Assembly: GCA_001788395.1 (NCBI GenBank)
Contig: MGBT01000143.1
Location: 3,667 to 38,563 of the forward strand
Direction of reading: 5' to 3'
Length of the DNA stretch: 34,897 nucleotides
Source: Candidatus Rokubacteria bacterium GWA2_70_23
GTDB taxonomy: Bacteria; Methylomirabilota; Methylomirabilia; Rokubacteriales; CSP1-6
Under the pieces are notes generated by a model. That model was not told where the DNA came from. It searched no databases and saw only the letters and a list, made by a program, of their open reading frames with translations. A program made the translations under genes and the position numbers. Below, one piece after another: positions 9,348 to 32,848 of the stretch (position 1 is its first letter; each line of letters starts with the position of its first letter).

Positions 9348-9390
9348 GTCAATTGAGCCTGGGCGGGAGCGACCGCATGATCATCGCATC

Positions 9391-9437
9391 CGCTCCGATC
9401 GGGGGTTTCCATGTCCGCTTGGCTCGCCTGCGGCTGC
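9391..9437 (-). repeat. dispersed intergenic repeat, copy B
   Basis: The reverse complement reads GCAGCCGCAGGCGAG, then GGACATGG, then CCGATCGGAGCG. It matches copy A at 1652-1699 at about 40 of 47 positions. It fills the 157-bp space between the oxidoreductase stop and the hisF2 start. The only other thing seen in that gap is a C-rich tract at its left side. Confidence 0.65.
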
Positions 9438-9504
9438 GCCTCGCCAAGCCACCCCCAGACCCCCCCCACCGGATCGAGACCTGCGCGGAGTGGGTCATGG
9501 CCGC

Positions 9505-10497
9505 TCAGTCCACCGTGACCCAGCGGCCCGAGGCGCTGGAGCGGGCGCAGGCGTCGAGGATGCGCTGGACGCGGTAGCCCGCGGCGAGATCCACCTGCGG
9601 CGGCTCGCGCCGGGCCACGCAGCCGAAGAAGTGCTCGAGCTCGTCCACGTACATCCGGTCGTAGGCAGGCTCGAAGGACCATGTCTCCCACGTCCGGGCG
9701 GTGTGGTCGTAGAGGCGCACCGTGTGCCCCTCGAGATCCACGAGGAGCGTGCTCCGGGTCCCGATGATCTCCACCTCGCTCCGCGCCGATCGGTCCACCA
9801 TGTCCAGGTGGATCGAGCCCACGGCGCCGCCCTGAAAACGCACGATGGTCTCGCAGACGTCGTCCGTGGTGACCTCGAGATCGCTGAGCGTTGCCACCAC
9901 GGAGACGAGCCCCTCGATGGGCCCGCACAGCCACTGCATCCAGTCGAAGGCGTGGCACTCGTCGAGGAGCACGCCGCCGCCCTGCTCCTTCTTGGCCATG
10001 TAGAAGGAGCGGTAGTCCTCGTAGGGGTGCCAGTCCGGCAGATAGACCCCCGTGAAACTCCGCGCCGTCACGATCCGTCCCACGGCGCCGGCCTCGAGCA
10101 GCGCCTTGGCCTTCTGGAGCGGCCGGAAGAAGCGCATGCAGAAGCCGGTCATCCCCACCAGGCTCCGGCTCTGAAGGGCCTCCAGCAGCTCCGGGATCCC
10201 GTCGAGGCTGTGCGAGACGGGCTTCTCCATGAAGATGTGCGCGCCTGCCTTCGCCAGCAGGAGCGCCGGCGGCATGTGGGAGGCCGTGGGCACGCAGATG
10301 AAGCCGGTCTCGAAGCGCTCGGCGCCGAGCGCCTCGTCCAGGCTGGCGAAGATCCTGACCGCGGGGAGCCTGGAGGCGATCTCCGCGCGGCGGTCCTCGC
10401 GCGTCTCGACGACGCCCGCCGACCGGCCCGAGGCCAGGAGGTTCTTGAGGTGACGCTTCCCGATGGAGCCGCCGCCGACGACGAGGGTCGTGATCAC
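9505..10497 (-). CDS. Gfo/Idh/MocA family sugar oxidoreductase
   Basis: A 330-aa NAD(P)-dependent oxidoreductase. The N-terminal Rossmann glycine motif VVGGGSIGKRHLKNL is at residues 6-20. The family signature EKPVSHSLDG is at about residue 115, supplying the conserved Lys of the EKP motif. GGGVLLDECHAFDWMQWL corresponds to the catalytic His region of the C-terminal beta-sheet domain. It would oxidise or reduce a hydroxyl or keto group on a sugar or nucleotide sugar. The GTG start overlaps the neuB TGA (GTGA), so it belongs to the nonulosonate operon, and oxidoreductases of this family are recurrent partners of neuB. The particular substrate is not readable. Confidence 0.87.
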   Translation of the reverse strand: MITTLVVGGGSIGKRHLKNLLASGRSAGVVETREDRRAEIASRLPAVRIFASLDEALGAERFETGFICVPTASHMPPALLLAKAGAHIFMEKPVSHSLDGIPELLEALQSRSLVGMTGFCMRFFRPLQKAKALLEAGAVGRIVTARSFTGVYLPDWHPYEDYRSFYMAKKEQGGGVLLDECHAFDWMQWLCGPIEGLVSVVATLSDLEVTTDDVCETIVRFQGGAVGSIHLDMVDRSARSEVEIIGTRSTLLVDLEGHTVRLYDHTARTWETWSFEPAYDRMYVDELEHFFGCVARREPPQVDLAAGYRVQRILDACARSSASGRWVTVD

Positions 10498-11519
10498 GGG
10501 ACGAGCATCTCCTCGGTGATGGGGGTGTCGGCGGCGATGGCCCGCGCGGTCCTGCGACCGAGGACGGATGTGAGCCGCCCGGGAGGGAGCCCCGTGCCCG
10601 GCCTGAGGATGACGAGATGCTCGGGGCCGAGCACCGTCCCCGCCGGCACGTCGCGCGCCGCCACGAGGCTCTTGCGCGCCACCTCGCGCACCGGCAGCTC
10701 GCCGGGTGCCGGGCGCTTGATCCCGTCGCCGAGGGCAGCCTCCACCTCGCGCACCGCGCGCACGAGCGCGGAGAGCTCGGCGGGCAAGAGCGAGGCCTGA
10801 TGATCGGGGCCGGGGAGGCTCCGGTCCAGCGTGAAGTGCTTCTCGACGCAGGAGGCGCCGCGGGCGGCCGCCGCGATCGCGATCGTCAGGCCCAGAGAGT
10901 GGTCAGAGAGCCCCACGGGCGTCCCGAAGACCCGCGCGTAGGTGTCCATGACGCGCAGGTTGGTGAGGCACGGATCCGCGGGGTACATGCTCACGCACTG
11001 GAGCACGGTCAGATCGGTGAGCCCGGCGCGCCGGAGGGCCCCCACGGCCGCTTGCACCTCGTCCATGTCCGCCATGCCGGTGGAGAGGAGGACGGGAAGC
11101 CCGAGCCCGCCCACCACCTCGAGCATCGGCACATTGGTCACGTCCCCCGAGGAGATCTTGAGGCGCCTGACGCCGAGCCGCTTGAGGGCGATCGCGCTCT
11201 CCGGATCGAACGGGGTGGACATGAACTCGATGCCGCGCGCCCGGCAGTGGGCGAAGAGCTCTTCGTGGGCGGCCGGGGAGAGCTCGAGAGCCTTGAGCAT
11301 GGCGTGCTGGCTCGCCTCGCCGCCCGTCGCGCGCTGCTGATACTCGGCCTTGGGGGCCCGGCGCGTCACGAGACGATCCGCCGTGAAGGTCTGGAACTTC
11401 ACCGCGTCGGCCCCGGCCTCGGCGGCCACGTCCACCATGGCGCGGGCCAGCGCCGGATCGCCGTTGTGGTTGACGCCGGCCTCGGCGATGAGGAAGACGC
11501 GCGCTGCCAAGCCGGTCAT
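10494..11519 (-). CDS. neuB: N-acetylneuraminate/legionaminate-type synthase (NeuB family)
   Basis: A 341-aa enzyme that condenses phosphoenolpyruvate with a six-carbon amino sugar to form a nine-carbon nonulosonic acid. The TIM-barrel motifs are in order: FLIAEAGVNHNGD at the N-terminus, AVKFQTFTADRLV, FMSTPFDPESA, LKISSGDVTNVPML, GLSDHSLGLTIAIAA and CVEKHFTLDRSLPGPDH. The last 65 residues (RKSLVAARDVPAGTVLGPEH) form the SAF/antifreeze-like domain. The length is typical. The ATG at 11519 overlaps the neuD TAA by one base (TAATG). NeuB, LegI and PseI share these motifs, so the product cannot be named from sequence alone. Confidence 0.93.
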   Translation of the reverse strand: MTGLAARVFLIAEAGVNHNGDPALARAMVDVAAEAGADAVKFQTFTADRLVTRRAPKAEYQQRATGGEASQHAMLKALELSPAAHEELFAHCRARGIEFMSTPFDPESAIALKRLGVRRLKISSGDVTNVPMLEVVGGLGLPVLLSTGMADMDEVQAAVGALRRAGLTDLTVLQCVSMYPADPCLTNLRVMDTYARVFGTPVGLSDHSLGLTIAIAAAARGASCVEKHFTLDRSLPGPDHQASLLPAELSALVRAVREVEAALGDGIKRPAPGELPVREVARKSLVAARDVPAGTVLGPEHLVILRPGTGLPPGRLTSVLGRRTARAIAADTPITEEMLVP

Positions 11520-12151
11520 TATAGTGGCCGCGCGGGGACACCGGCCACGGTGCGCCCCGGCGGAACCGCCTGGGTAACCACGGCGCCCGCTGCCACCACC
11601 GCGCCCGCGCCCACTTCCACGCCCGGCAGGACCACGGCGCCCGCGCCGAGGAAGGCGCCCTCGCGGATCCTGACGCTCCCCGAGAGGATCACCCCGGGGG
11701 AGCAGTAGGCGTGGTCCTCGATCACCGAGTCGTGCTCGGCAATCACGCCGCTGTAGAGGACGACGTTGCGACCGACGCGGACGCGCGCCCCGATCACCGA
11801 GCCCGCGAAGACCACCGTGCCGGCGCCGAGGCCGGCCGAGGCGGCCATGCTGGCGCGTGGGTGGACCAGCACGGGCGCCGGAACCCCGCGGGCCTCCAGG
11901 AGCGCCCAGAGCTGGCGCCGCACGGCCAGGGCGGTGTTGCCCACGCCCACCAGCCCCGCGTCGAAGCGGCCGCGCTCGAAGCCGTCGAGCGCCGTGGCGT
12001 CGTCGCCCAGGACGGTGAAGCCGAGCACGTGCTTGCCGACGAGCGCGGGATCCGCGTCGGAGAAGCCGACAACCTGCATCCCCGACGTCTCGTCGATCAT
12101 GTCGGCCAGGGCCTGACCGTGGGCGCCGGCGCCCAGGATCAGGACGCGCAT
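11519..12151 (-). CDS. neuD: NeuD-type sugar O/N-acyltransferase
   Basis: A 210-aa protein with an N-terminal Rossmann-like PglD_N domain (RVLILGAGAHGQALADMI) and a C-terminal left-handed parallel beta-helix of hexapeptide repeats. The repeats are visible in AGSVIGARVRVGRNVVLYSG, DHAYCSPGVILSGSVRIREG and GAGAVVLPGVEVGAGAVV. The usual catalytic His of this family is likely the one in IAEHDSVIEDHA. It would acetylate a nonulosonate or its amino-sugar precursor using acetyl-CoA; PglD, LegH and NeuD all share this build. The ATG at 12151 is preceded on the minus strand by a perfect 14-bp palindrome at 12154-12167. The track ORF extending to 13324 upstream is a shadow of the radical SAM gene. Confidence 0.88.
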   Translation of the reverse strand: MRVLILGAGAHGQALADMIDETSGMQVVGFSDADPALVGKHVLGFTVLGDDATALDGFERGRFDAGLVGVGNTALAVRRQLWALLEARGVPAPVLVHPRASMAASAGLGAGTVVFAGSVIGARVRVGRNVVLYSGVIAEHDSVIEDHAYCSPGVILSGSVRIREGAFLGAGAVVLPGVEVGAGAVVAAGAVVTQAVPPGRTVAGVPARPL

Positions 12152-12153
12152 GC

Positions 12154-12167
12154 GCCCCGCGCGGGGC
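12154..12167. other. 14-bp perfect palindrome upstream of neuD
   Basis: GCCCCGCGCGGGGC lies in the 38-bp gap between the radical SAM stop and the neuD start. It could form a hairpin in the transcript but has no T-tract. Its role is unknown. Confidence 0.35.
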
Positions 12168-12189
12168 TCTCGGGGCTCGTTCCCGGGGC

Positions 12190-13650
12190 TCAGCGCACCG
12201 CCCCGACGGCCTCGCCAGGAGCCGGGCGGACGTGGTGCTCGACGATGGGCATGCCCTTCTCGGCGGCGAAGCGGCGCAGCCGGTCGAAGTCCTGCGAGTA
12301 CATGAGCTGCTGGAGCCCCAGAAGCTCCACGTCGTTGAAGTGCTTCGAGATGTTCACGGAGATGTCGGTGGCGTCGTCCAGGGACAGGAGGAAGCGATCG
12401 AGGCTGCCGCCCCACTGGTCGAGGATCTTCCGCTTGTACTGCACGTAGAGCTCGGTGCCGGGGTACGGGGTGATGAGGAACGGCTTGACGATCATTCCGT
12501 TGCGCCGCCAGAAGTTCATGGTCTCGTACATGGTCTGCGGCGTCTCGTCCGGGTAGCCCATCATGAAGGTCATGACCCCGCGGATGCCCGACTGCACCGT
12601 CCACTCCAGCGCCTGCTGCATCTGCTCGACCGTGGTGTTCTTCTTCACGGCCTTGAGGATCATGTTGGAGGCCGACTCGCCGCCGTAGGAGATGTAGGAG
12701 CAGCCCACCTCGCGGAGGCGCTTGAGCATGTCCAGCGTGACGCCGCCCACGTCTCCCAGGCAGCCGAAGCGGACGATGCCCGCGAGCCCCGCCCGCTCCC
12801 AGGCGTCGCAGAGCTCGAAGACGCGCCGGCGGTAGGAGGTCATGTTCTCGTCCAGGATCGAGACGAAGTCCACGCCGTACTTGAAGCGCAGGGAGCGCAC
12901 CATCTCCACCGTGTACTCGGGGGAGTTGAAGCGGTAGATGGGCTCCTCCTTGAAGTCGGTCCCCTCGTAGACCCGCTCCAGGTCGTACTTCGACATCCCG
13001 CCGTGCTCGCAGAAGGTGCACATGCGCGGGCAGCCCCGCTCCATCAGGATGTCGATGCGCCGGGTGGCGGCAGCCGACTCCGGGCTGAACATGAGCGCGC
13101 TGTTCTCGAAGTAGATGTCCAGCGGAATGAGATCGTAGGCCGGGTAGGGGATGTCGTCCATGCTGGCGATGAGCTTCCGGGGTCGGGTCCGGACGGCCTT
13201 GCCGTCGGGCCGCCGGTAGATCACGCCCTCGACGCGGGACCAGTCGCGGTCCTCGAGGTGCTCGAGCACCTCGGGCAGGGTCGCCTCGCCCTCGCCCACC
13301 ACCGCCACGTCGATCTCGGGGCACAGCGCCATCATCTCCTCGGGCATGCTCGTGAGGAACCCGCCCCCCGCCAGCACGAGAGCCTGCGGCTGCTGGGCCT
13401 TGATGAGCCTCAGCAGCGGCTTGATGAACTTGTACTGGCTGGAGAGCCCACCGATCCCCACCACGTCGAAGCGGTCCTCGGCGAGCGCCTCCGTGACCGC
13501 GCTCCCGGTGATGCGCAGCGCGTTCAGGTCGAGGAAGGCGACCTGGTGCCCGAGGTTCTCCGCCACCGCCGCCAGGATGCCGATGCCGTAGGGGATGTGC
13601 TTGGGGACATCGCCGAGCCTGACGGGCGGGTGGATGAACAGGATCTTCAT
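12190..13650 (-). CDS. B12-binding-type radical SAM protein 1
   Basis: A 486-aa protein with an N-terminal cobalamin-binding-type flavodoxin-like domain (residues 1-140: MKILFIHPPVRLGDVPKHIP, LVLAGGGFLTSMPE, VAVVGEGEATLPEVLEHL) and a radical SAM domain. The iron-sulfur cluster cysteines are C207, C211 and C214 (RGCPRMCTFCEHGG). ITPYPGTELYVQYK is the BchE-like substrate-side motif. The canonical DxHxxG B12 motif is not seen, which is common in this subgroup. It likely methylates, rearranges or otherwise modifies a sugar or lipid-linked intermediate by radical chemistry. The ATG start at 13650 overlaps the Maf-like gene's stop as ATGA. Two further members lie in the window. Confidence 0.85.
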   Translation of the reverse strand: MKILFIHPPVRLGDVPKHIPYGIGILAAVAENLGHQVAFLDLNALRITGSAVTEALAEDRFDVVGIGGLSSQYKFIKPLLRLIKAQQPQALVLAGGGFLTSMPEEMMALCPEIDVAVVGEGEATLPEVLEHLEDRDWSRVEGVIYRRPDGKAVRTRPRKLIASMDDIPYPAYDLIPLDIYFENSALMFSPESAAATRRIDILMERGCPRMCTFCEHGGMSKYDLERVYEGTDFKEEPIYRFNSPEYTVEMVRSLRFKYGVDFVSILDENMTSYRRRVFELCDAWERAGLAGIVRFGCLGDVGGVTLDMLKRLREVGCSYISYGGESASNMILKAVKKNTTVEQMQQALEWTVQSGIRGVMTFMMGYPDETPQTMYETMNFWRRNGMIVKPFLITPYPGTELYVQYKRKILDQWGGSLDRFLLSLDDATDISVNISKHFNDVELLGLQQLMYSQDFDRLRRFAAEKGMPIVEHHVRPAPGEAVGAVR

Positions 13651-14750
13651 GCAGACGTCTCCTTGCTCGCCACGTGCTCGAGGAAGCGAGCGAGCGGCAG
13701 CGTCGTGATGCCCGGACCGAAGAGCGATCCGCCCTGGGTGCAGTTGCAGGTGCGCACCCAGGGCGGCACCCGCGCGAGCATCTCGAGGAAGTGGCGCCGG
13801 AACTCGGCGAACATCACGTCGAGCAAGGCCGGCTGGCCCAGGTCGGGATTGTAGATCTCGGTGAAGTAGGCGCGCGCGGCCTCCGGATCGCCCCCCGTCA
13901 GCTCGGAGATCACGGGGTAGCACTGCGTCCGCTCGAGGGGATACCCCAAAGGGTAGCCGAGGTCCAGGCCGATGAGCCCGATGGGGCTCCGCCTGAGGAG
14001 TGCATGCGCCAGCACCCAGCCCGTGGCCCCCGCATGACCCCCGCATGAGACGGCGGGAAGCCCCTGCGGCCAGCGCGCGTTGCGGGTCATGCCGCGCTGG
14101 AGCGCGGTCAGCGACCCCTGGCGCCGGGGATCGTCGAAGAGCGGGTGGAACCAGTAGAGCGTGGCCCCGGCCCGCGCGAATCGCTCGGCCACCGGCGGGG
14201 CGCCCATGCTCGCCATGGCGACGCGGAGCTTGGCGCCGTGCTGGTCCACCATGGGGTCGTCCACGAAGCGGGCGATCACCTCGTGGTCCCCGTCGATGGA
14301 GACGACGAGGTCGGGGATCACGCCGAGCCTGAGGAGCGGGATCAGGATGCGGTCGGTGGCGACGAGCATGAGGCCCGGGGGACACGACTCGGCGAGCAGC
14401 TCCAGGTGGCGATGCTCCCGGAGACTCGGGCCGCCGCCGATCACCAGCGCCGGCCCCGCGGGCGGGGTGGCGGGCACCTGGAGGTCCAGCAGGAGGTCGC
14501 CGAGCGCCCGGGCGTCGGGCCCCATGATGGGCGCCAGGTTCCGGGCGAAGTTGGCGAGCCAGAGGTCGGACAGCTTCTCCCGGGTGGCGCGGTGGAAGCG
14601 GTCGGAGAGCGACTCCTCGAGCGCCACGTCAACCACGAGGTGCCCGAGCCACTCCTTCCAGGAGCAACCGCCGAAGCCGTCGTCTTCCTTCCGCTTCTGG
14701 AGCTTGCGGAAGTCCGAGTCGGAGAGCCCCCTGACGACGAAGTCCTTCAT
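13647..14750 (-). CDS. Maf-type/DUF115 glycosyltransferase (motility accessory factor-like)
   Basis: A 367-aa protein whose centre carries ALVIGGGPSLREH (about residues 101-113) and IPDLVVSIDGDHEV, the hallmarks of the MAF_flag10/DUF115 fold shared with the MptE-like pyrophosphokinases. LIGLDLGYPLG and a C-terminal TCNCTQGGSLFGPGI also fit. Maf proteins transfer pseudaminic or legionaminic acid from the CMP-sugar onto flagellin, so this gene beside neuB and neuA suggests protein-linked nonulosonate. The N-terminal 40 residues (KDFVVRGLSDSDFRKLQKRK) look like a ribbon-helix-helix or small helical add-on. No flagellin or other acceptor gene is in the window, so the acceptor is unknown. Confidence 0.8.
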   Translation of the reverse strand: MKDFVVRGLSDSDFRKLQKRKEDDGFGGCSWKEWLGHLVVDVALEESLSDRFHRATREKLSDLWLANFARNLAPIMGPDARALGDLLLDLQVPATPPAGPALVIGGGPSLREHRHLELLAESCPPGLMLVATDRILIPLLRLGVIPDLVVSIDGDHEVIARFVDDPMVDQHGAKLRVAMASMGAPPVAERFARAGATLYWFHPLFDDPRRQGSLTALQRGMTRNARWPQGLPAVSCGGHAGATGWVLAHALLRRSPIGLIGLDLGYPLGYPLERTQCYPVISELTGGDPEAARAYFTEIYNPDLGQPALLDVMFAEFRRHFLEMLARVPPWVRTCNCTQGGSLFGPGITTLPLARFLEHVASKETSA

Positions 14751-15018: not shown

Positions 15019-16578
15019 TCAGGTTCGCCGGAACCCCGTCACGATGAACTCCCTGAATCGCCGGGGAGATAGGAGAGACAGGGCGTATGTCAGGTTGTCC
15101 CGGGTCCCCCCGTGGGCGGACAGCAGCAGGAGGAGGTACACCCCCAGTGCCGCGGCTGCCGGCAGGGGCCAGGAGAGCAGGGGGCTCACGGGAAGGGCGC
15201 CGAGGCTCGAGAGCGCCCACTCGAGCCCGTGGTGGACGGCCAGGAGGAGCGCGAAGCCTGCCAGGTAGATCCAGGCGCGAGGGGAAAGGGGCATGCCCGC
15301 CAGGTCGCGCGTCCAGCGGAAGTAGACCCAGGCCGGGAAGAGGATCAGGAAGAGCCGCGCCGCCGCCGCCCCCGCCGGTCCCGTCCAGAGCCCGGCCGCA
15401 TGCCCGACCGCCCAGGCTGCGACGGGCGACTCGGGGATGAGCACGCTGAGGGCGGCCAGGTAGGCGACGACCCGGAGCAGGTTCACAGGGACGAAGCGCG
15501 CCCCTTCGTCAAGGGCATAGACCACGTGAGTGTAGGGATTGACGACGGCGGCGGCCACGGCGGCCAGGACCAGGATCCGGAGCGCCGCCACCGCGGGGTG
15601 GAACTGGGCGCCGTAGAGCAGCGTGACGACGGCCTCGGCCCCTGCCCACAAGACGAAGGCCAGCGGGATGACCAGGAAGAGGAGCTTGTCGAGCGCCCCC
15701 CAGAAGAACCGCCGCGCCTCGGCGTCGCCGGCCGCGGAGCGCGTGGCGAAGAGCGCCGAGAGCCGGGTGAAGATGAAGGTGGCGAGCGCGGCGATGACCG
15801 AGGAGAGCGCCTCCCACAGCGCGCGCGCCACGTGGTAGTGGCCGGCGGCGGCGAGCCCCGCCCAGTGGCCGACCAGGAAGCGGTCCACCGAGTCCTGGAC
15901 GAGGGCCAGCGGCGTCGTGACCATGAACGGGCGCGCGTAGGTCCAGTACCCGCGGAGACTCTCGCGCGTGGGGCGCGTCGCGCGCACGCCGTGCTGACGG
16001 GCGAGCAGGGTGGCCGCCGCCGCGCAGGACAGGATCCCCTCGAGCGGGAAGGTCGCCGCCACCGCGGTCACGCTCGGCGCCCAGAGGAGCACCGCGAGCG
16101 TCACCAAGAGGCGCGTGACCCGCGCACCGAGCGTGATGGCCGAGTAGCCCACGATCCACTCGCGCGCGAGGAAGACCTTGAGGAACATGTCGGCGAAGTT
16201 GCCGCTCACCTGGGAGGCGAGCACAAAGACGAAGACGAGGCCGAGCTCCGAGGCGCCTCCCGCGCCCCCGAGGACCCAGCCCGTGGCCACCGCGGCCAGG
16301 AGCGCGCCTGTCAGCGCCAGCTGGATCACGGCCATGGTCCCGAGGCAGCGCCCTGCGTCCTGCCCCTCGGCCAGGCGCTTGAGGTGGGCCTGGGCGAAGC
16401 CGGGGAGCAGCGCCGCCATGCAGAGGCCGGCCGCGCCCAGGCTCCAGCCGATCCCGCCCAGCGCGGTGGGCCCCAGGAGCCGCGCGATCAGCAGCGAGAC
16501 GAGCATGCCCAGGGCGGTTCCGCCCCAGGTGCTGACGAGGACGAGCAGCGACTTGCGCCCCAGGTCTTGAGGTGGCAC
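15019..16578 (-). CDS. polysaccharide/oligosaccharide flippase (Wzx-like, MOP superfamily)
   Basis: A 519-aa polytopic inner-membrane protein with about 12-14 predicted helices. It starts with KSLLVLVSTWGGTALGMLVS and LLIARLLGPTALGGIGW, the usual N-terminal pattern of Wzx/RfbX flippases that carry undecaprenyl-linked glycans to the outer face. GLAAAGHYHVARALWEAL and VTLLYGAQFHPAVAALRILV fit later family segments. The track begins at GTG 16683, but the first 35 residues there are polar, low in conservation and overlap the divergent gene. I prefer GTG 16578 because TAGAAT ends 8 nt upstream of it, as at neuC. It heads the minus-strand nonulosonate run. Confidence 0.87.
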   Translation of the reverse strand: MPPQDLGRKSLLVLVSTWGGTALGMLVSLLIARLLGPTALGGIGWSLGAAGLCMAALLPGFAQAHLKRLAEGQDAGRCLGTMAVIQLALTGALLAAVATGWVLGGAGGASELGLVFVFVLASQVSGNFADMFLKVFLAREWIVGYSAITLGARVTRLLVTLAVLLWAPSVTAVAATFPLEGILSCAAAATLLARQHGVRATRPTRESLRGYWTYARPFMVTTPLALVQDSVDRFLVGHWAGLAAAGHYHVARALWEALSSVIAALATFIFTRLSALFATRSAAGDAEARRFFWGALDKLLFLVIPLAFVLWAGAEAVVTLLYGAQFHPAVAALRILVLAAVAAAVVNPYTHVVYALDEGARFVPVNLLRVVAYLAALSVLIPESPVAAWAVGHAAGLWTGPAGAAAARLFLILFPAWVYFRWTRDLAGMPLSPRAWIYLAGFALLLAVHHGLEWALSSLGALPVSPLLSWPLPAAAALGVYLLLLLSAHGGTRDNLTYALSLLSPRRFREFIVTGFRRT

Positions 16579-16652: not shown

Positions 16653-18332
16653 GTGCGTGTGGTTCGCCGCTCACCGTCGGCACCGTCGAGCCGGGCCTTC
16701 CGGCTCGGCTTGACGCTGATCCTCCTCGTCTTTCTCGTCCAGGGGCTCACCCTGGCTCGGCTCCTCGTTCCCTCCCATGACGAGTCGAACTTTCTCTTCG
16801 TGAGCTATCTCGCCGCCAGCGGCCGCGTCGGGCTCTTCGACGACAACATGGTCGGGCACCGGGCGCCCCTCCCCTACTATGTCTTCGGGGCCACCCAGGT
16901 GCTCTTCGAGCGAAGCCTCCTGGCCGCCCGGGCGCTGGGCGTGGGCTTCGGCCTGGCGCTCGTGCTCCTGACGGGGCTCCTCGCCCGCCGGCTGGGCGGC
17001 ACGCTGTGCGGACTCCTGGCAGCGGCCATCCTGACGGCGCAGGGCGCCATCGTCGCCTACTACTCGCTGGGCGACTACCACGCCCTGCTCCCCCTCGTGA
17101 TGATCGCGGGGCTCTCCGTCTGGCTGGGGGGCGAGAGCCCGACCCGGAACGTGACCGGCGCCGCCATCCTCGGCTCGCTGTTCTTCATGCGCAGCCACGT
17201 GTGGCCGCTGCTGCCGCCGGTGCTGGTCTACTCGGTGTGGCGGGCGCGGAGCCCCGGGGAGCGGCTCCTGGCTGGATCGGCCGTCGTCGCGCCGCCACTC
17301 GTCTTCTTCCTCTGGGATCCCCGCCACCTCAAGATCCTGGCCTCGGTGCCGCTGGTGGGCGGGCTGGTTCGGCCGCTCGGCTACGTCCCGTTCGTCCTCC
17401 TGGACGCGAGACCCTACCGCGACCTGGAGTACCAGCTCGACATGCTGATCCGCCTGGGCCGGCGCTACGAGTTCCTCGCGCTTCTCGTGGCGGTGACCGT
17501 CCTGGCCGTCGCGCGGCGCATCCGGCGGACCCGCGGCGGCGGGCCGTTCCTGGCGGACGCGCGCGTGAACCTCGTGGCCGCGATCTTCGTCTACATGCTC
17601 GGCTGGCTCTTCGTCATGTTCCGGATGAACTTCAAGTGGATCGGGATGTACTTCGCCTCGCTGGTGCCGCTGCTGGCCGTGGTGCTCGGCTGGGTCTGGA
17701 GCCGCCTCGCCGCCGATCCGGCGGTCTCGCGACGGGCCCGGGCGCTCTCGGGCGCCTTCCTCGCCGCGGTCTTGCTGCTGCCGATCTACTACAACCGCAA
17801 CCCGCTGATCCCCACGGGGGAGATCCGCGCGGCCGATCCCGTTCGCGCGGTGAGCGCGGCGGGCGCGCACCTGGCGCGGGTGGTGCCCCGCGAGGCGCGG
17901 GTCTTCCTGTTCGGCGCGGTGGACGTCTACTACTTCTCCGGGCTGCCGCCCACGTGGATCCAGCAGATCACCAACTACGATACGCTGGCGGTGAGGGACG
18001 AGGACAACTGGGCCACCATGCGGAGCGGGTACTACGGCATGCCTCAGGTGGAACGGTGGCTCGGTATCGAGGCGGACTATGCCGTGATCTCGCCGGAGGC
18101 CCTGAACGTGTTCGCCGAGGGGTTCCACGGCCACCCCGAGGTCAACCGCCCCAAGGTGGCGCGCATCCGGGCCCTGCTCGCGGAGCGCTTCGAGCAGATC
18201 GACCGCGTCGCCGAGTACCCGTATTACTCCTACGAGGTCTACCGCCGGGTGAGCCGCCCGGCCACGGGGCGGACGAGCGGGCGGCCCGCGGCCGGCGACG
18301 CGGGAGCGGCGACCCCGCGTCAGGTTTCATGA
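16653..18332 (+). CDS. GT-C family glycosyltransferase (PMT/ArnT-like membrane protein)
   Basis: A 559-aa integral membrane protein. After a short basic N-terminus the first helix is [19 protein letters not shown]. It is followed by the short extracytoplasmic loop [20 protein letters not shown], whose Asp-Glu pair corresponds to the catalytic acidic motif of polyprenyl-phosphate-dependent GT-C enzymes. About 9-10 helices follow, then a soluble C-terminal part (from about residue 380) with [20 protein letters not shown]. It would transfer a sugar from a lipid-phosphate donor on the outer side of the membrane. It has a GTG start without a clear Shine-Dalgarno sequence and is divergent from the flippase. 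The last 35 residues are Arg/Ala/Gly-rich and probably disordered. Confidence 0.82.
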
Positions 18333-23370: not shown

Positions 23371-24246
23371 TCAAGACTTCCGGGCGAGGACGATCATCTC
23401 GTTGGTTGGGATCCGCACGGCCAGGCGCTCGAGGCCCGGGCGAGTGAGCGCCCGGGCGACCCGCACGGCCCCCGGGAGCCTCCAGTAGCGCCAGAGCCGA
23501 GCGGTCAGGTCGGACACGGAGTACCACGCCCAGTACCACCGGTGCCATCGCAACTCGAGCCCGGCGGCTCGCACCAGGGGTGCCAGCGTCCGGAACGAGA
23601 AGTAGTACAGGTGCTCCGGAGGCTTCCACTCGTACCAGCGAAGAACCCCCTCGATGTTGAGCGTCGTGATCAGCAGCTGTCCCCCGGGCCTGAGGAGGCG
23701 CGCGGCGGCCCGCAGCGTGACCAGGGGATCCGGCATGTGCTCGATGGTCCCGATGAGGGTGACGGCGTCGAAGGAGCCAGGCTCGAGCCCGGCCTGGTCG
23801 ATGTCTCCCCGGAACACCGCGAGCCCCAGCGTGTCGCGGGCGTAGCGGACGGCGTCGGCCGAGATGTCCACTCCGTATCCGGTCCAGCCCCGATCGCGGG
23901 CCGCCGCCAGGAAGAAACCGTGCGCGCAGCCGATATCGACCAGGCGGCGGCCTGCCCCCGGGGCCTCGCGCTCGAGGATCGCCAGCAGCGAGCGGGAATT
24001 CTTCAGATGAAGGGACCGATGCGCCAGGTAGTCCCCGTACCCGATGGTGGAGGCGCCGTCGGTCCGGAAGTAGGCCGGGCCGTACAGCTCGTCCAGGCCC
24101 CCGAGCGCATGCCAGCCGTCGACGAAGACGAGGCTGCACTGCTGGCACCGGACGATGCGGAAGCCGTCGGTGGTCTCCACGGGCAGGGCGGAGACGGGCC
24201 CGCAGGCAACGCACCTGGTCGAGCCGATCGGGTCTGGCGTGGACAT
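23371..24246 (-). CDS. class I methyltransferase with N-terminal zinc ribbon
   Basis: A 291-aa protein. The N-terminus has two CxxC pairs (RCVACG and RCQQCSLVFVDG), as in sugar C-methyltransferase-like and related Methyltransf_23 proteins. The SAM-binding motif I is RRLVDIGCAHGFFLAAARD at about residue 100, followed by GYGVDIS, and later SFDAVTLIGTIEHMPDP and LLRPGGQLLITTLNIEG. A role in methylating a deoxysugar or glycan end is plausible from context. I choose ATG 24246 rather than the track's GTG 24261. TACCAT lies 6 nt upstream of this ATG, consistent with a leaderless start, and the extra five residues are not homologous. It is convergent with radical SAM gene 2. Confidence 0.85.
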   Translation of the reverse strand: MSTPDPIGSTRCVACGPVSALPVETTDGFRIVRCQQCSLVFVDGWHALGGLDELYGPAYFRTDGASTIGYGDYLAHRSLHLKNSRSLLAILEREAPGAGRRLVDIGCAHGFFLAAARDRGWTGYGVDISADAVRYARDTLGLAVFRGDIDQAGLEPGSFDAVTLIGTIEHMPDPLVTLRAAARLLRPGGQLLITTLNIEGVLRWYEWKPPEHLYYFSFRTLAPLVRAAGLELRWHRWYWAWYSVSDLTARLWRYWRLPGAVRVARALTRPGLERLAVRIPTNEMIVLARKS

Positions 24247-24347: not shown

Positions 24348-24378
24348 TTGACGGATCTCGAAGGCGCCGTGTTAGGAT
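24348..24378 (+). promoter_or_regulatory. predicted promoter for the tandem membrane-protein pair
   Basis: TTGACG (24348-24353), a 19-bp spacer and TAGGAT (24373-24378, in the context TGTTAGGAT, an extended -10) precede a GTG at 24384 by 5 nt. This favours a leaderless GTG start over the TTG start chosen by the ORF track. Confidence 0.45.
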
Positions 24379-24383
24379 TCGGT

Positions 24384-24911
24384 GTGCTCAAGGGGATCCT
24401 GCTCGCGTGCGGCGCGTTCGGCGCCTTTGTTCCCCTGCACCTCGCGATCTTCCACCTCCGCGCGCCCCATCGTCGCTTCGGCTCCATGGTGCGGCTCCAC
24501 GCGTCCCTGGCCCTCGGCCTGGTCGTGGCGTACGCCGTCACGCCGCCGGACGTCTGGGTGATTCCCGCGGGCTGGGCGGGGGCGGGCTGGCTGATCGACG
24601 TGGCCAACGGGCTCCTCGTCCACGGCCTGCTGTTCGTGGGGTACAGCATGTTCTATTTCCTCGTGGACCGCGGCTTCTCCGCGCGGATCCTCATCGAGAT
24701 CGAGCGCGCGCCGGGGCAGGCGCTCACCCCGGACGAAGTCGCCGCGATCTACTCGCTCGACCGGGTCGTGGCGCGTCGACTCGACGAGATGGTGGACATC
24801 GGGTCCGTGATCAAGGAGGGTGACCGGTATCGGATGACGGCCCGGGGGCGCCGGCAGGCGCAGCGCTTCGCGTTCCTGAAATCGTTCTTTCGCCTGGGCC
24901 CGGGCGGGTAG
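24384..24911 (+). CDS. membrane protein with C-terminal winged-helix-like domain, paralog 1
   Basis: A 175-aa protein of unknown function. It has about three to four hydrophobic segments (GILLACGAFGAFVPLHLAIF, LALGLVVAYAV, and GLLVHGLLFVGYSMFYFLVD). These are followed by a soluble 80-residue part with LIEIERAPGQALTPDEVAAI, then ARRLDEMVDIG and IKEGDRYRMTARGRRQAQ, which has the pattern of a winged-helix domain (helix, helix, beta wing DRYRMTxxG). It ends in LGPGG. Using GTG 24384 gives almost the same length as the following paralog (174 aa), which supports that start. It could be a membrane-bound sensor or regulator, or an accessory protein of glycan synthesis; neither is proven. Confidence 0.7.
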   Translation: MLKGILLACGAFGAFVPLHLAIFHLRAPHRRFGSMVRLHASLALGLVVAYAVTPPDVWVIPAGWAGAGWLIDVANGLLVHGLLFVGYSMFYFLVDRGFSARILIEIERAPGQALTPDEVAAIYSLDRVVARRLDEMVDIGSVIKEGDRYRMTARGRRQAQRFAFLKSFFRLGPGG

Positions 24912-24913
24912 GC

Positions 24914-25438
24914 GTGCGAGGGCTCCTCGCGGCGGCGCTGACATTCTTGGCCTTCCTCGGAGTCCAGGTCGTCACCTATCATTTTGTGAGGATCCGGCGG
25001 AGGCTCTCTGTGATGCTCTGGCTCTGGCTTCTCGGCTTCTCCGGCTACGTGGCGCTCGTCCGTCTTCTGCCAGACGACGCGGCGTGGCTGCCACCGCTTC
25101 TGTCCGCTCCGTCTGACGCGGTCGTGTGGATCAACGGCGCCCTGGTCTACTGGTTCCTCTTCGCCGGCTACTATCAGCTGTTCAACATGGCCGACAACTC
25201 GGTCGGCGTGCGGAGCCTGATCGAGCTCTCCCGAGGGCCGCAGGACGGTCTCAGCCTGGAGGAGCTCAAGCGGTACTACTCCTTCGACGTGATGCTGGGG
25301 CGGAGGATGGAGCGCCTGGTGGCGGCCGGCTACCTCGAGCGGGACGGCGACCGGTACCGGTGCACCGGCCGGGGACTCGCCGCCGGACGACTGATGAGGA
25401 CGCTCAAAGGCCTGCTCAACCTCGGCCCCGGCGGGTGA
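24914..25438 (+). CDS. membrane protein with C-terminal winged-helix-like domain, paralog 2
   Basis: A 174-aa protein that starts with GTG 2 nt after its paralog. It has the same plan: hydrophobic segments (LLAAALTFLAFLGVQVVTY, LWLWLLGFSGYVALV, NGALVYWFLFAGYYQLFNM), then a soluble part with LIELSRGPQDGLSLEELKRY, GRRMERLVAAGYLERDGDRY and the same LNLGPGG ending. Shared positions with paralog 1 include LIE(x)xR(x)P, RR(x)(D/E)(x)(x)V, GDRYR(x)T(x)RG and LGPGG, so this is a diverged tandem duplication. The family is not one I can name. The pair probably works as a heteromeric unit. Confidence 0.7.
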   Translation: MRGLLAAALTFLAFLGVQVVTYHFVRIRRRLSVMLWLWLLGFSGYVALVRLLPDDAAWLPPLLSAPSDAVVWINGALVYWFLFAGYYQLFNMADNSVGVRSLIELSRGPQDGLSLEELKRYYSFDVMLGRRMERLVAAGYLERDGDRYRCTGRGLAAGRLMRTLKGLLNLGPGG

Positions 25439-25534: not shown

Positions 25535-25563
25535 TTGCGAAACGGGGGGAGCGCCCATACAAT
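25535..25563 (+). promoter_or_regulatory. predicted sigma70 promoter for the SDR-aminotransferase-E1 operon
   Basis: TTGCGA (25535-25540), a 17-bp spacer and TACAAT (25558-25563) give a transcript start near 25570 and a 65-nt leader before ATG 25635, which is preceded by GAGGGAAG. The 196-bp gap upstream is otherwise a GGC-rich tract and a short T-rich stretch near 25495. Confidence 0.5.
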
Positions 25564-25634
25564 CGTGGCGCGGGCCGCGGTCGGGTCGGCCCCCGCCCGG
25601 GAGAGCACCCCAGATCACGCCGCGAGGGAAGAGC

Positions 25635-26636
25635 ATGGCGACAGCGTTCCGGCATGTCCTGGTGACGGGCGGAGCGGGCTACGTGGGGGCGGTGCTCGTG
25701 CCCAAGCTCCTGGCGCACGGCTACCGGGTCACGGTGGTGGACCTCTACATCTTCGGCGAGGCCGCGCTCGCCTCGGTGTCCGGCCACCCCGAGCTCCGCC
25801 AGGTGAAGGGGGACATCCGCGACCGGGCGCTCCTGGAGCGCGAGCTCACGGGGGTGGACGCGGTGATCCACCTGGCCTGCATCTCCAATGATCCGAGCTT
25901 CGAGCTGAACCCCGCGCTGGGCAAGTCCATCAACTACGACGCCTTCTTGCCGCTGGTGGACATCTCCAAGGACCGCGGCGTCAGGCGCTTCATCTACGCC
26001 TCCTCCTCGAGCGTCTACGGCATCAAGGAGGAGGAGGACGTCACCGAGGACCTCCCGCTCACCCCCTTGACGGACTACTCCAAGTACAAGGCCCTCTGCG
26101 AGGAGGTGCTGCTGCGCGCCCAGGCGCCTGGCTTCACCACGCTGATCCTCCGTCCCGCCACGGTGTGCGGGGACTCCCCGCGGCTCAGGCTGGATCTCAC
26201 GGTGAACATCCTGACCAACCTCGCCGTGAACCGGGGCCGGATCACGGTGTTCGGGGGCGCGCAGAAGCGGCCCAACATCCACATCGAGGACGTCACCGAC
26301 CTCTACGTGCAGGCCCTCGAGTGGGACGACGCGCGCATCGCGGGGGAGACCTTCAACGCGGGCTACGAGAACCACACCGTGGCGGCGCTGGCCGAGATGG
26401 TGCGGGAGGTGGTGGGGCGGGAGCAGGTGAGCATCGAGACGACGCCCACGAACGATCACCGCTCGTACCACATCTCCTCCGAGAAGATCAAGCGCGCCCT
26501 CGGCTTCGAGCCGCGCCGCACGGTGGAGGACGCGGTGAGGGATCTCACGCAGGCCTTCCGCGCGGGACGGATCCCCGACTCGATGGACGACCCGCGCTAC
26601 TACAATATCAAGACCATGCTCGCGGCGAAGCTGTAG
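25635..26636 (+). CDS. NAD-dependent epimerase/dehydratase (extended SDR), sugar nucleotide
   Basis: A 333-aa extended SDR. It has HVLVTGGAGYVGAVLVPKL at residues 7-25, VIHLACISNDPSFELNP, the Ser region YASSSSVYGIKEE and the catalytic YSKYK in TDYSKYKALCEE. LRPATVCGDSPRLRLDL and RPNIHIEDVTDLYVQAL are substrate-side motifs. It would oxidise, dehydrate or epimerise an NDP-sugar to provide the keto sugar for the two aminotransferases that follow at once (the next gene begins 1 nt later). It might act as the LegB-like dehydratase of the locus, but its sequence does not prove a 4,6-dehydratase. Confidence 0.85.
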   Translation: MATAFRHVLVTGGAGYVGAVLVPKLLAHGYRVTVVDLYIFGEAALASVSGHPELRQVKGDIRDRALLERELTGVDAVIHLACISNDPSFELNPALGKSINYDAFLPLVDISKDRGVRRFIYASSSSVYGIKEEEDVTEDLPLTPLTDYSKYKALCEEVLLRAQAPGFTTLILRPATVCGDSPRLRLDLTVNILTNLAVNRGRITVFGGAQKRPNIHIEDVTDLYVQALEWDDARIAGETFNAGYENHTVAALAEMVREVVGREQVSIETTPTNDHRSYHISSEKIKRALGFEPRRTVEDAVRDLTQAFRAGRIPDSMDDPRYYNIKTMLAAKL

Positions 26637-26637
26637 G

Positions 26638-27753
26638 ATGCGGGTCCCGTACTCCTCCCTCAGGGAGCAGTTCGCCGACTCCGAAGCGATCCTGCGCGAC
26701 ATCAAGGGGCTGCTGGAAACCACGCAGTTCACCCTGGGGCCGGCCGTCGCGCGATTCGAGGCCGCCTTCGCCCGGATCTGCGGCGCCCGCTTCGCCGTTG
26801 GCGTGGGGACGGGCACGGACGCCCTCTTCCTCTCGCTCAAGGCGCTCGGCGTCGGTCCCGGCGACGAGGTCATCACCGCGGCCAACACCTTCATCGCCAC
26901 GGCGGGTGCCATCGTGGCGGCGGGCGCGCGGCCGGCCTTCGTGGACGCAACCGACGACTTCAACATCGATCCGGCCGGGATCGAGCGGGCCATCACGCCG
27001 CGGACCAGGGCGATCATGCCCGTGCATTACGCCGGGCAGCCGGCCCGGATGGGCGCGATCCTGCTGATCGCGGCCGCTCACCGGCTGCCCGTGGTGGAGG
27101 ACGCCTGCCAGGCCATCGGCGCCTCCGTCGACGGCCGTCTCGTGTCGAGCTTCGGTGTGGCGGCGGGTTTCAGCCTCCACCCGCTCAAGAATCTCAACGT
27201 GTGGGGCGACGGCGGCGTCATCGTCACGAGCTCGGAGGAGCTGGACGCCACGCTCCGGCTCCTCCGCAATCACGGGCTCAGGAACCGGGACGAGGTGGAG
27301 ATCTTCGGCTACAACAGCCGGCTCGACACGCTCCACGCCATCGTGGGCAACCACCTGATCACGGAGGTGGAGGCCATCACCGCGGCCCGGATCAGGAACG
27401 CCCGCGCGCTGGACGCGGGGCTCCTGCCCCTGGCGCCGCGGGTGCGCATCCCCGCCCGCCACGCCAACGAGCGCCACGTCTTCCACCTCTACATGTTCGA
27501 GGCCGACGACCGCGACCGGCTGCGGGCGTATCTCATCGAGCGCGGGGTCGAGGCGAAGATCCACTACCCCGTGCCGCTGCATCTCCAGCCGGCCGGCCGG
27601 CGCCTCGGCTACAGGGAGGGCGACTTCCCCGAGGCCGAGCGCCAGGCGAAGCGCATCATCACGCTGCCGGTCCATCAGCACCTGAGCCAGGACCAGGTGG
27701 ACTACATGGTCGAGGTGGTGACGGACTTCTACGGCACGGGCTCGCGGCGGTGA
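26638..27753 (+). CDS. DegT/DnrJ/EryC1-type PLP sugar aminotransferase, copy 1
   Basis: A 371-aa PLP-dependent aminotransferase acting on keto sugars linked to nucleotides. It has VGVGTGTDALFLSLKALGVG (PLP phosphate region), EVITAANTFIATAGAIV, VVEDACQAIGASVDG with the Asp that contacts the PLP ring nitrogen, and the Schiff-base lysine in SLHPLKNLNVWGDGG. NHGLRNRDEVEIFGYNSRLD and EAKIHYPVPLHLQPAG complete the family pattern. The ATG is 1 nt after the SDR stop. It is paired with a copy of identical length directly downstream. Confidence 0.92.
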   Translation: MRVPYSSLREQFADSEAILRDIKGLLETTQFTLGPAVARFEAAFARICGARFAVGVGTGTDALFLSLKALGVGPGDEVITAANTFIATAGAIVAAGARPAFVDATDDFNIDPAGIERAITPRTRAIMPVHYAGQPARMGAILLIAAAHRLPVVEDACQAIGASVDGRLVSSFGVAAGFSLHPLKNLNVWGDGGVIVTSSEELDATLRLLRNHGLRNRDEVEIFGYNSRLDTLHAIVGNHLITEVEAITAARIRNARALDAGLLPLAPRVRIPARHANERHVFHLYMFEADDRDRLRAYLIERGVEAKIHYPVPLHLQPAGRRLGYREGDFPEAERQAKRIITLPVHQHLSQDQVDYMVEVVTDFYGTGSRR

Positions 27754-28865
27754 CCGAGCCGGGCCGCCGGGTCACGTACATGGACTTGCCCCGTCAGTTC
27801 GCTGACGGCGAGGTGGTGCGGCGGGTGGCGGAGGAGTTCAGCCGCTGCCGTTTCGTCCTGGGCCCCCAGGTGGCGGAGTTCGAGAGCCGCTTCGCCCGGC
27901 TCTGCGGCGCGGCCCACGCGGTGGGGCTCAACTCCGGCACCGATGCGCTGTTCCTCGCGCTCAAGGCGCTGGGTGCGGGCGCGGGGGACGAGGTCATCAC
28001 CGTGCCCAACAGCTTCGTCGCCACGGCGGGCGCCATCGTCATGGCAGGCGCGACGCCCGTCTTCGTGGACGTCAACGCCGAGTACCTGATGGACCCGGCG
28101 GGGCTCGAGGACGCCATCACGCCGCGGACCCGGGCGATCATCCCCGTCCATCTCACGGGCAACCCCGCCGACATGGACGCCGTCGGCGCCGTGGCGTCCC
28201 GGCACCGGCTCGCCGTCATCGAGGATGCGGCGCAGGCCGTGGGCGCCTCCATCGGTTCACGCCGGGTCGGGTCCATCGGGGAGGCGGGCGCCTTCAGCCT
28301 CTTCCCGCTCAAGAATCTCGGCGTGGCGGGGGACGGCGGGATGCTCACCACCAACTCGGCCGCCGTCGCCGATCGGGTGCGTCTGCTGCGCCACCACGGC
28401 CTCCGCAACCGGGACGAGGTGGAGGTCTTCGGCTACAACAGCCGGCTCGACACGCTCCAGGCCATCGTGGGGGACGCCGTGCTGGCCGGCGTCGAGCAGG
28501 TGGCCGAGACGCGGATCCGCCACGCGCAGCTCTACGATCGGGCCCTGGCGCCGCTGGCGCCCCATGTCATCGTCCCGCCGCGGCGGGCGGGCGTCCGCCA
28601 GGTGTTCCACACCTACGTGGTTCAGGTGGAGGCGCGCGACCGGCTCATGCCCTTCCTGGAATCCCGCGGGGTGGAGACGAAGATCCACTACCCGATCCCG
28701 ATCCACCTGCAGAAGGCGGCGGAGTCGCTCGGTTACAAGCGCGGCTCCTTCCCGGTGTGCGAGGCCCAGACCGGGCGCATCCTGTCGCTGCCCGTCCACG
28801 AGTACTTGACCGACGACGACCTCGAGTACGTGGTGGCCCAGCTCATGGAGTTCTACCCCCGATGA
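27750..28865 (+). CDS. DegT/DnrJ/EryC1-type PLP sugar aminotransferase, copy 2
   Basis: A 371-aa paralog of the preceding enzyme with the same length and motif order: LNSGTDALFLALKALGAG, EVITVPNSFVATAGAIV, VIEDAAQAVGASIGS, the lysine in SLFPLKNLGVAGDGGM, HHGLRNRDEVEVFGYNSRLD and ETKIHYPIPIHLQKAA. The GTG start overlaps the previous TGA (GTGA). An ATG at 27780 would be a shorter option. Residues around the active site differ between copies (HYAGQPARM versus HLTGNPADM, and NLNVW versus NLGVA), so they may use different keto sugars or amino positions. The stop overlaps the ATG of the repeat mini-ORF. Confidence 0.92.
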   Translation: MTEPGRRVTYMDLPRQFADGEVVRRVAEEFSRCRFVLGPQVAEFESRFARLCGAAHAVGLNSGTDALFLALKALGAGAGDEVITVPNSFVATAGAIVMAGATPVFVDVNAEYLMDPAGLEDAITPRTRAIIPVHLTGNPADMDAVGAVASRHRLAVIEDAAQAVGASIGSRRVGSIGEAGAFSLFPLKNLGVAGDGGMLTTNSAAVADRVRLLRHHGLRNRDEVEVFGYNSRLDTLQAIVGDAVLAGVEQVAETRIRHAQLYDRALAPLAPHVIVPPRRAGVRQVFHTYVVQVEARDRLMPFLESRGVETKIHYPIPIHLQKAAESLGYKRGSFPVCEAQTGRILSLPVHEYLTDDDLEYVVAQLMEFYPR

Positions 28866-28993
28866 GCGCTTGCGCGAAGAGGCCACACCGCGACCCGTGG
28901 TCTTCCACGTTCAGGCAAGATGGTCAGAGCGCTTGCGCGAAGAGGCCATACCGCCACCCGTGGTCTTCCACGTTCAGCCGAGCAGACCGATGA
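28862..28993 (+). CDS. 43-aa mini-ORF made of two peptide repeats, coding status uncertain
   Basis: The ATG at 28862 overlaps the aminotransferase stop as ATGA, and the TGA at 28991-28993 overlaps the E1 alpha start as ATGA. The ORF is thus chained to both neighbours. It reads twice SACAKRP(H/Y)R(D/H)PWSSTF with a 5-residue spacer, reflecting the underlying 51-bp DNA repeat. Both base differences between the units change amino acids in this frame, which argues against selection on this peptide. It may simply carry ribosomes across the repeat. Confidence 0.3.
   Translation: MSACAKRPHRDPWSSTFRQDGQSACAKRPYRHPWSSTFSRADR
28864..28977 (+). repeat. 51-bp tandem direct repeat (two units, 63-bp period) with hairpins
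   Basis: Units 28864-28914 and 28927-28977 share 49 of 51 bases, beginning GAGCGCTTGCGCGAAGAGGC and ending TCTTCCACGTTCAG. Each contains CGTGG-TCTT-CCACG, a perfect 5-bp stem with a 4-nt loop (28896-28909 and 28959-28972). The repeat fills the junction between the second aminotransferase and the E1 alpha gene. Confidence 0.9.
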
Positions 28994-31183: not shown

Positions 31184-32848
31184 GTGAAGGTCCTCTTCGT
31201 CGAGCGGGACGTCGAGTACATCGACCCGATGAACATCCAGCTCCTGTCGGCGCTGGCCAAGCAGCGGGGGCACTCGACCTTCCTCACCATCCTGAGCGCG
31301 GACGACCTCGACGCCGACCTGCGGCGGATCAAGCCGGACCTGGTCGCCTTCAGCGCCAAGACCGGGGAGCACACGACCTACTTCCGCGCCAACGAGCGGG
31401 TGAAACAGTACTCGCCGAAGATCTTCACGATCATGGGCGGGCCGCACCCGACCTTCTTCCCCGGTCTCATCGAGACCCACGACTTCGACGCCGTCGGGGT
31501 GGGGGAGTGCGACGAGGGCTGGCAGGAGCTGCTGGACGCGCTCGAGGCCGGCCGGAGCATCGACGCCATCCCGAACATCGTCACGCGGGCCAACGCCTCC
31601 AAGGTGCTGCGCGCCACCACGCGGGCCTCCGAGCTCGTCCAGCTCGCGGGGGCGGCCGCCTCCGTCCGGCCCGAGTACGACCTCGAGGTGGACCCGACGT
31701 TCCTCCGGCCGCGCCGCACGGTGCTCGACACCCTGCCCTTCTACGACCGGGAGCTGGTCTACCGGAAGACGCACTTGGCGCGCTTCCCCCTCCGCTCGTT
31801 CATGTCCTCCCGCGGCTGTCCGTATCAGTGCACCTACTGCTTCGAGCCCAAGTTCAACGTGATGTACGCGGGCAAGGGGCCCATCTACAACCGCTACAGC
31901 GTGAAGCGGCTGTGCGCGGAGCTGGCGGAGCTCAAGGAGCGCTGGCCCACGCAGTTCATCAAGTTCTACGACGACATGTTCATCCTCGACCGGAAGGTGG
32001 ACGCCTGGCTCGAGGAGTTCGCCGAGGTGTACCCGCGGGAGGTGGGGCTGCCGTTCTTCTGCCTGACGCGCGCCAACGTGCTCACGCGGGAGAACCTGGC
32101 GGCGCTCACGCGGGCCGGCCTCCACTCGCTGACCATGTCCATCGAGGCGGGCAACGAGTACGTCCGGAACACCATCGTGAAGCGGCACATGCGGCAGCAG
32201 CAGATCGAGGACGCCTACACCCTGTGCTGGGAGAACGGGATCGTGACCTTCGCCAACACGATCCTCGGCATCCCGGTCCGCAAGGAGATCATGGCCCAGC
32301 AGGGCAAGACGGCCATCGACTACGACATCGAGTCGCTGGACATCAACATCCGCTGCCGCGTCACCTATGCCGACTTCCCGGTGCTCCACCCCTACCCGGG
32401 CTGCGAGCTCACCGAGTACGCGGTGAAGCACGGCTTCTTCGACGGCGACTTCGACAAGCTGTTCTTCAGCTACCAGGCCGAGAGCCCGTTCACCTGCTTC
32501 ACGCCCAAAGAGGCCCTGATGCAGAAGAACCTCTCGCTGCTCGGGCCCCTCTGCGTGATGTTCCCCAGCGCGCGGTGGCTGCGGAATCTGACGGTCAACG
32601 TGCTGATGAAGCTGCCGCTGACGAAGCTGTACTTCTTCCCCTGGTACCTGGCCAAGGGCTACCTCAACATCTTCCGCGTGTACCCGTTGAAGCTGTCGCT
32701 CTGGAGCCTGGCCCGGAACCTCGCCTACAGCATCCAGCGGGAGTGGCGGAAGCGCTCGCCGCACAAGCTCCTGTACCGCAAGACGCTGCGCCTCGACCGG
32801 CCCACGGGCCAGACCCTCGGCGGGCCGCCGCCGGACCCGGGCTCGTGA
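31184..32848 (+). CDS. B12-binding-type radical SAM protein 3
   Basis: A 554-aa protein with an N-terminal cobalamin-binding-type domain (KVLFVERDVEYIDPMNI, FTIMGGPHPTFFPGLIE, AVGVGECDEGWQELLDAL), a linker of about 80 residues, and a radical SAM core with C212, C216 and C219 (SSRGCPYQCTYC). KFYDDMFILDRKVDAWLEEF, SIEAGNEYVRNTIVKRHM and VLHPYPGCELTEYA match the BchE-like group. The C-terminal 100 residues are basic and aromatic (LYFFPWYLAKGYLNIFRVYP), suggesting membrane contact, as in protein 2. It has a GTG start with GGGAGAG before it. The end overlaps the next gene by GTGA. The reaction is unknown. Confidence 0.85.
   Translation: MKVLFVERDVEYIDPMNIQLLSALAKQRGHSTFLTILSADDLDADLRRIKPDLVAFSAKTGEHTTYFRANERVKQYSPKIFTIMGGPHPTFFPGLIETHDFDAVGVGECDEGWQELLDALEAGRSIDAIPNIVTRANASKVLRATTRASELVQLAGAAASVRPEYDLEVDPTFLRPRRTVLDTLPFYDRELVYRKTHLARFPLRSFMSSRGCPYQCTYCFEPKFNVMYAGKGPIYNRYSVKRLCAELAELKERWPTQFIKFYDDMFILDRKVDAWLEEFAEVYPREVGLPFFCLTRANVLTRENLAALTRAGLHSLTMSIEAGNEYVRNTIVKRHMRQQQIEDAYTLCWENGIVTFANTILGIPVRKEIMAQQGKTAIDYDIESLDINIRCRVTYADFPVLHPYPGCELTEYAVKHGFFDGDFDKLFFSYQAESPFTCFTPKEALMQKNLSLLGPLCVMFPSARWLRNLTVNVLMKLPLTKLYFFPWYLAKGYLNIFRVYPLKLSLWSLARNLAYSIQREWRKRSPHKLLYRKTLRLDRPTGQTLGGPPPDPGS

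Follow-up and report, generated by a model that had tools for sequence, protein, structure and literature searches.

Surface-glycan loci of uncultured bacteria hold accessory genes that have no family name, and the window analysed here (the whole 34,897-nucleotide stretch of DNA, from the MAG of a soil bacterium, a Candidatus Rokubacteria) raises the question of what a tandem pair of small membrane proteins with winged-helix tails does in such a locus. The two genes, here called A and B, and their C-terminal ends are placed as follows.

24384..24911, + strand: gene A, 175 aa, three transmembrane (TM) helices and a C-terminal winged helix (open reading frame, translation, AlphaFold, dN/dS)
24914..25438, + strand: gene B, 174 aa, built like its paralogue A (open reading frame, BLASTP, AlphaFold)
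24894..24908, + strand: C-terminal LGPGG of A (translation)
25421..25435, + strand: C-terminal LGPGG of B (translation)

The biased G+C content at codon positions 1, 2 and 3 (0.72, 0.46 and 0.93 in A; 0.68, 0.45 and 0.87 in B) and a dN/dS of 0.24–0.29 against two congeners (0.26–0.29 for A) point to two genuine genes maintained by purifying selection. A gap of 2 nt separates the stop codon of A from the start of B, and the two products are 31% identical over 158 aa (BLASTP, E 5e-24); comparison of the A profile with the B profile aligned 173 columns (E 2e-29). The initial annotation, which had described two closely spaced paralogous genes of this size ending in LGPGG, is borne out in these respects. 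A may instead start at an in-frame GTG at position 24369, giving a product of 180 aa, since the sequence upstream is conserved and the relative G002 has an ATG at the corresponding alignment position. The LGPGG end is common to close relatives (GSGG in one) and to one gene of G065; other family members end in MEKGG, LSSW or a longer tail, and the motif is not family-wide. We rejected the idea that the terminal GG is a ubiquitin-like tail, because some family members lack the GG and the domain does not have a beta-grasp fold.

AlphaFold models were built on a shallow family alignment of 20 sequences and reached a mean pLDDT of 83.2 for A and 90.6 for B. Modelled singly, each protein has three long N-terminal helices and, at the C terminus, a winged helix, which agrees with the earlier description of a hydrophobic N-terminal half and a winged-helix tail.

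24387..24539, + strand: A, TM1 (aa 2–25) and TM2 (aa 28–52) (model, hydropathy peaks, K/R counts)
24588..24707, + strand: A, TM3 and winged-helix helix 1 as one unbroken helix (aa 69–108) (model, conservation)
24708..24890, + strand: A, remaining winged helix (AlphaFold; fold matches MarR, HxlR, IclR), with H2 at aa 116–122, the recognition-helix position (H3) at 126–139, wing strands at 142–151 and H4 at 153–169 (AlphaFold)
24917..25066, + strand: B, TM1 (aa 2–24) and TM2 (aa 30–51) (model, hydropathy)
25115..25234, + strand: B, TM3 and helix 1 (aa 68–107) (model, conservation)
25235..25414, + strand: B, remaining winged helix (AlphaFold, fold matches), with H2 at aa 115–119, H3 at 128–137, wing strands at 141–150 and H4 at 152–167 (AlphaFold)

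Hydropathy gives three transmembrane peaks that agree with the modelled helices. The loop between TM1 and TM2 is rich in arginine, and so cytosolic by the positive-inside rule, and the second loop is uncharged or acidic, which argues for a cytosolic winged helix; the predicted topology would thus place the N terminus outside, three helices in the inner membrane and the winged helix in the cytosol. Comparison of five sequences per gene from a close clade showed that the junction of TM3 and helix 1 is the most conserved part of both proteins (mean identity 0.93 in A and 0.96 in B, with 0.83 for the recognition helix). Within this junction DRGFSARILIEI is the most conserved segment of A (24588..24707), and NMADNSVGVRSLIEL is invariant among the five closest B proteins. 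The last helix of a divergent relative, 2_G005 (residues 156–174), has a mean hydropathy of 1.87, a hydrophobicity that would let it rest along the membrane.

A and B look like members of no named family, as had been claimed at the outset. No Pfam or NCBIfam model matched either protein above its cut-off, and Foldseek found no PDB match to either model at E 0.001 or better and no solved structure that covers the whole fold. The best PDB matches are confined to the winged helix, where they include MarR, IclR, HxlR/YodB, Sso10a, MotA and the winged-helix domains of O-methyltransferases; for MarR, HxlR and IclR the Foldseek probability is near 1.00 (TM-score to YodB 0.69–0.72, by target length). 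A viral structure library gave nothing better. A profile search of PDB sequences returned weak matches alone, several of them winged helices, and the sub-threshold Pfam matches were likewise of winged-helix type (PF25213, HTH_45, EutK_C and HemN_C). The most frequent of these for A, B and their relatives was PF25213 (HVO_A0261_N; E 3e-4 to 4e-2), a haloarchaeal winged helix to which the resemblance is partial and whose gathering score of 35 bits no sequence reached (maximum 20.9). Searches of viral contigs, plasmids and Rfam gave no useful match, and a literature search found no publications on the family.

Known systems resemble the pair in part. The C-terminal domain has the winged-helix fold of MarR, HxlR and IclR regulators, but these are soluble homodimers without transmembrane helices, whereas A and B have three each and fall below every profile cut-off; TIGR04176 (MarR_EPS), a soluble winged helix from exopolysaccharide loci, gave no match to either. 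CadC and ToxR are regulators tethered to the inner membrane, with an N-terminal winged helix, one transmembrane helix and a periplasmic sensor. They share with A and B a winged helix fixed to the membrane, from which A and B differ in its C-terminal position, in their three transmembrane helices, in the absence of a large periplasmic domain and in being a tandem pair.

A profile search found family members in 10 of 95 genomes of the phylum, all from one taxonomic family, and in every one of the ten they form a single adjacent pair on the same strand, with no single copies. The genes of a pair overlap by 4 nt or lie 2–4 nt apart across the relatives, in which genes were called by a simple codon-position script rather than taken from curated annotation. 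The first profile picked up both members of eight pairs directly; for G067 and G069 one member was picked up and the partner was recognized as a neighbour with the same plan, after which both were added to the profile. Among the close relatives, G001 is GWC2_70_16, and two more are also named Rokubacteria. A pattern scan of 84,980 species genomes, based on the five closest B proteins and able to detect close relatives only, returned Rokubacteria alone. Weak single matches in G015 (an ABC permease), G029 (a methyltransferase) and G066 (an HxlR-like regulator) were rejected after in-frame reading as chance or shared-fold similarity. In a tree, the first genes are for the most part separated from the second genes (2 changes, where shuffles gave 6.9), as expected for an old duplication that has been kept as a pair; first genes as one clade are not rejected (p-AU 0.29), and one clade per gene position is compatible with the data.

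The pair was said to lie between glycan-modifying genes, and this is so: a methyltransferase lies on one side, and an epimerase and DegT aminotransferases on the other.

23371..24246, − strand: SAM methyltransferase (Methyltransf_23), neighbour of the pair
25635..28865, + strand: NDP-sugar epimerase and two DegT aminotransferases, neighbours of the pair
15019–16578, same locus: Wzx-type flippase
16710..18332, + strand: GT-C/PMT-like multi-pass protein of 540 aa, co-occurring with the pair

The locus in the window also holds TPP-dependent E1 alpha and beta genes, B12-radical SAM proteins, an HldE-like kinase/adenylyltransferase, a GmhA-like SIS protein, a GT2 glycosyltransferase and a NeuB-type set with WbuX and HisF-like amidotransferase genes. 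Around the pair in G001, G002, G071, G005, G064 and G065 lie genes of the same families, and a Methyltransf_23 gene stands beside or near it in G001, G002, G071 and G064. In all, 8 of the 10 pairs have a glycan or NDP-sugar locus as their setting, and these loci share gene families; the distant pairs of G067 and G069 have different neighbours. In G065 a MarR_EPS-like regulator gene directly follows the pair (locus L033, 10849–11478; TIGR04176 65.6 bits against a cut-off of 88).

The gene that tracks the pair is the GT-C-like one, which is named from its look, as its product matches no Pfam or NCBIfam profile. It is present in 8 of the 57 genomes of the bacterial family, and the pair occurs in seven of these eight carriers as against 3 of the 49 non-carriers (Fisher p 3e-6, a value overstated by the relatedness of the genomes and the linkage of the locus). 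The eighth carrier, G031, has no pair; the NeuB half of its locus adjoins a contig end, and the assembly may lack the remainder. Rates of divergence point the same way. Between G000 and G005 or G064, the pair is 26–33% identical and the GT-C-like protein 36–42%, and the methyltransferase is 36% identical between G000 and G064, whereas HldE, SIS, E1 and the 554-aa radical SAM protein retain 61–88% identity. The pair therefore changes like the glycan-specific parts of the assembly machinery, at a divergence near that of the GT-C-like protein and far above that of the sugar-synthesis enzymes. The 554-aa B12-radical SAM gene (31184–32848) is 85–88% identical in loci that are otherwise far more diverged.

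On the strength of the conservation pattern, the rapid divergence and the association with the GT-C-like gene, we favour the view that A and B form an obligate membrane-bound heteromer that acts as an accessory of glycan assembly, to which we give a probability of roughly 0.45. The constant pairing, the absence of a conserved operator-like element around the genes and the hydrophobic last helix of 2_G005 count in its favour as well. Heteromerization, topology, the identity of the partner and a role other than DNA binding are what we infer here. A and B would be two translationally coupled subunits, each with three inner-membrane helices, the third of which is continuous with winged-helix helix 1, and together they would serve as an accessory or assembly factor for the membrane glycan machinery of the locus, that is, the GT-C-like transferase and lipid-linked assembly. 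The two winged helices would act mainly as protein–protein modules at the cytosolic face, docking or gating partner enzymes; winged helices can indeed serve as protein–protein or dimerization modules. A stronger version, which we consider possible, is that the pair founds a new obligate heteromeric family whose winged helices dock proteins and not DNA, organize or gate GT-C and lipid-linked assembly, and diversify with the glycan. A constant membrane winged-helix pair that diverges with the glycosyltransferases would represent a novel kind of subunit or regulator in glycan assembly, and a winged helix built straight onto a membrane helix would be a testable design.

Several observations argue against an accessory role. 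Pair and GT-C-like gene may co-occur because they were inherited together in a single linked locus, G067 and G069 have the pair and no GT-C-like gene at the threshold used, and fast evolution is frequent in small membrane proteins whatever their role. Moreover, DNA-binding regulators, with MarR foremost, make up most of the top structural matches to the winged helix, conserved arginine residues, including an arginine pair, stand in H3, and the cytosolic part is mildly basic (15 K/R against 11 D/E in A). These last points lead to the closest competitor, which we hold possible but prefer less: an A–B heterodimer acting as a membrane-tethered one-component transcription regulator, whose winged helices bind DNA of the glycan locus while the membrane part senses lipid-linked glycan or the state of the envelope. 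The MarR, HxlR and IclR folds, the sub-threshold winged helix-turn-helix profiles PF25213 and HTH_45, and the arginines of H3 and of the Arg-rich wing all suit such a regulator, and the passage of TM3 into H1 offers a plausible signal path. A promoter-like site (25535–25563) followed by an inverted repeat (25567–25597) also lies between B and the epimerase gene, but it is not conserved in congeners, and an alignment of G000, G001 and G002 revealed no conserved operator-like element upstream or downstream of the pair. The residues that might bind DNA give a divided answer: the H3 arginines are conserved, yet the exposed positions presumed to face DNA vary within the genus (A127 is R/Q/Q/G/A and A130 is A/E/E/R/T). 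In addition, the G065 locus has a regulator of its own, and a winged helix held tight at the membrane would probably have little reach to DNA. The initial annotation had left open a one-component regulator or a new accessory family; we prefer the second, and the first is a possibility weakened by the lack of a conserved operator in congeners, the variable H3 and the capacity of winged helices to bind protein.

Much less probable than either is that A and B are the two subunits of a small membrane transporter or of a flippase component, in which the winged helix would serve for assembly. The comparison is with ArnE and ArnF, a small membrane pair of a glycan-lipid locus with the SMR-type four-helix fold, which resembles A and B in being obligate tandem paralogues in a glycan setting. 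However, A and B are modelled with three transmembrane helices plus a winged helix rather than four helices, no SMR, EamA or GtrA profile of Pfam matches either, and the locus already encodes a Wzx-type flippase. A pair that merely rides in variable loci with no functional tie to the glycan, for example as a defence or toxin–antitoxin-like system, is similarly improbable, for although it would account for fast divergence, patchy presence and the other neighbours in G067 and G069, the remaining pairs have glycan or NDP-sugar genes around them, PADLOC (best E 0.03, over a short stretch) and PHROGs gave no convincing match, and no viral or plasmid relatives were found.

The accessory role in glycan assembly that we prefer for A and B would belong to a locus with further features of its own. 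Positions 6737–14750 carry the NeuB-type nonulosonate pathway with WbuX and amidotransferase genes of HisF and HisH-like type; a gene for an MptE-like protein (PF01973) lies there too, and a B12-radical SAM gene adjoins them. Two 56-nt direct repeats, 93% identical and 63 nt apart from start to start, occupy 28864–28982, just before or at the start of the E1 alpha gene. In G001 the epimerase gene found after the pair in G000 and G002 is apparently a remnant (locus L013, 322–552), its start running into its end.
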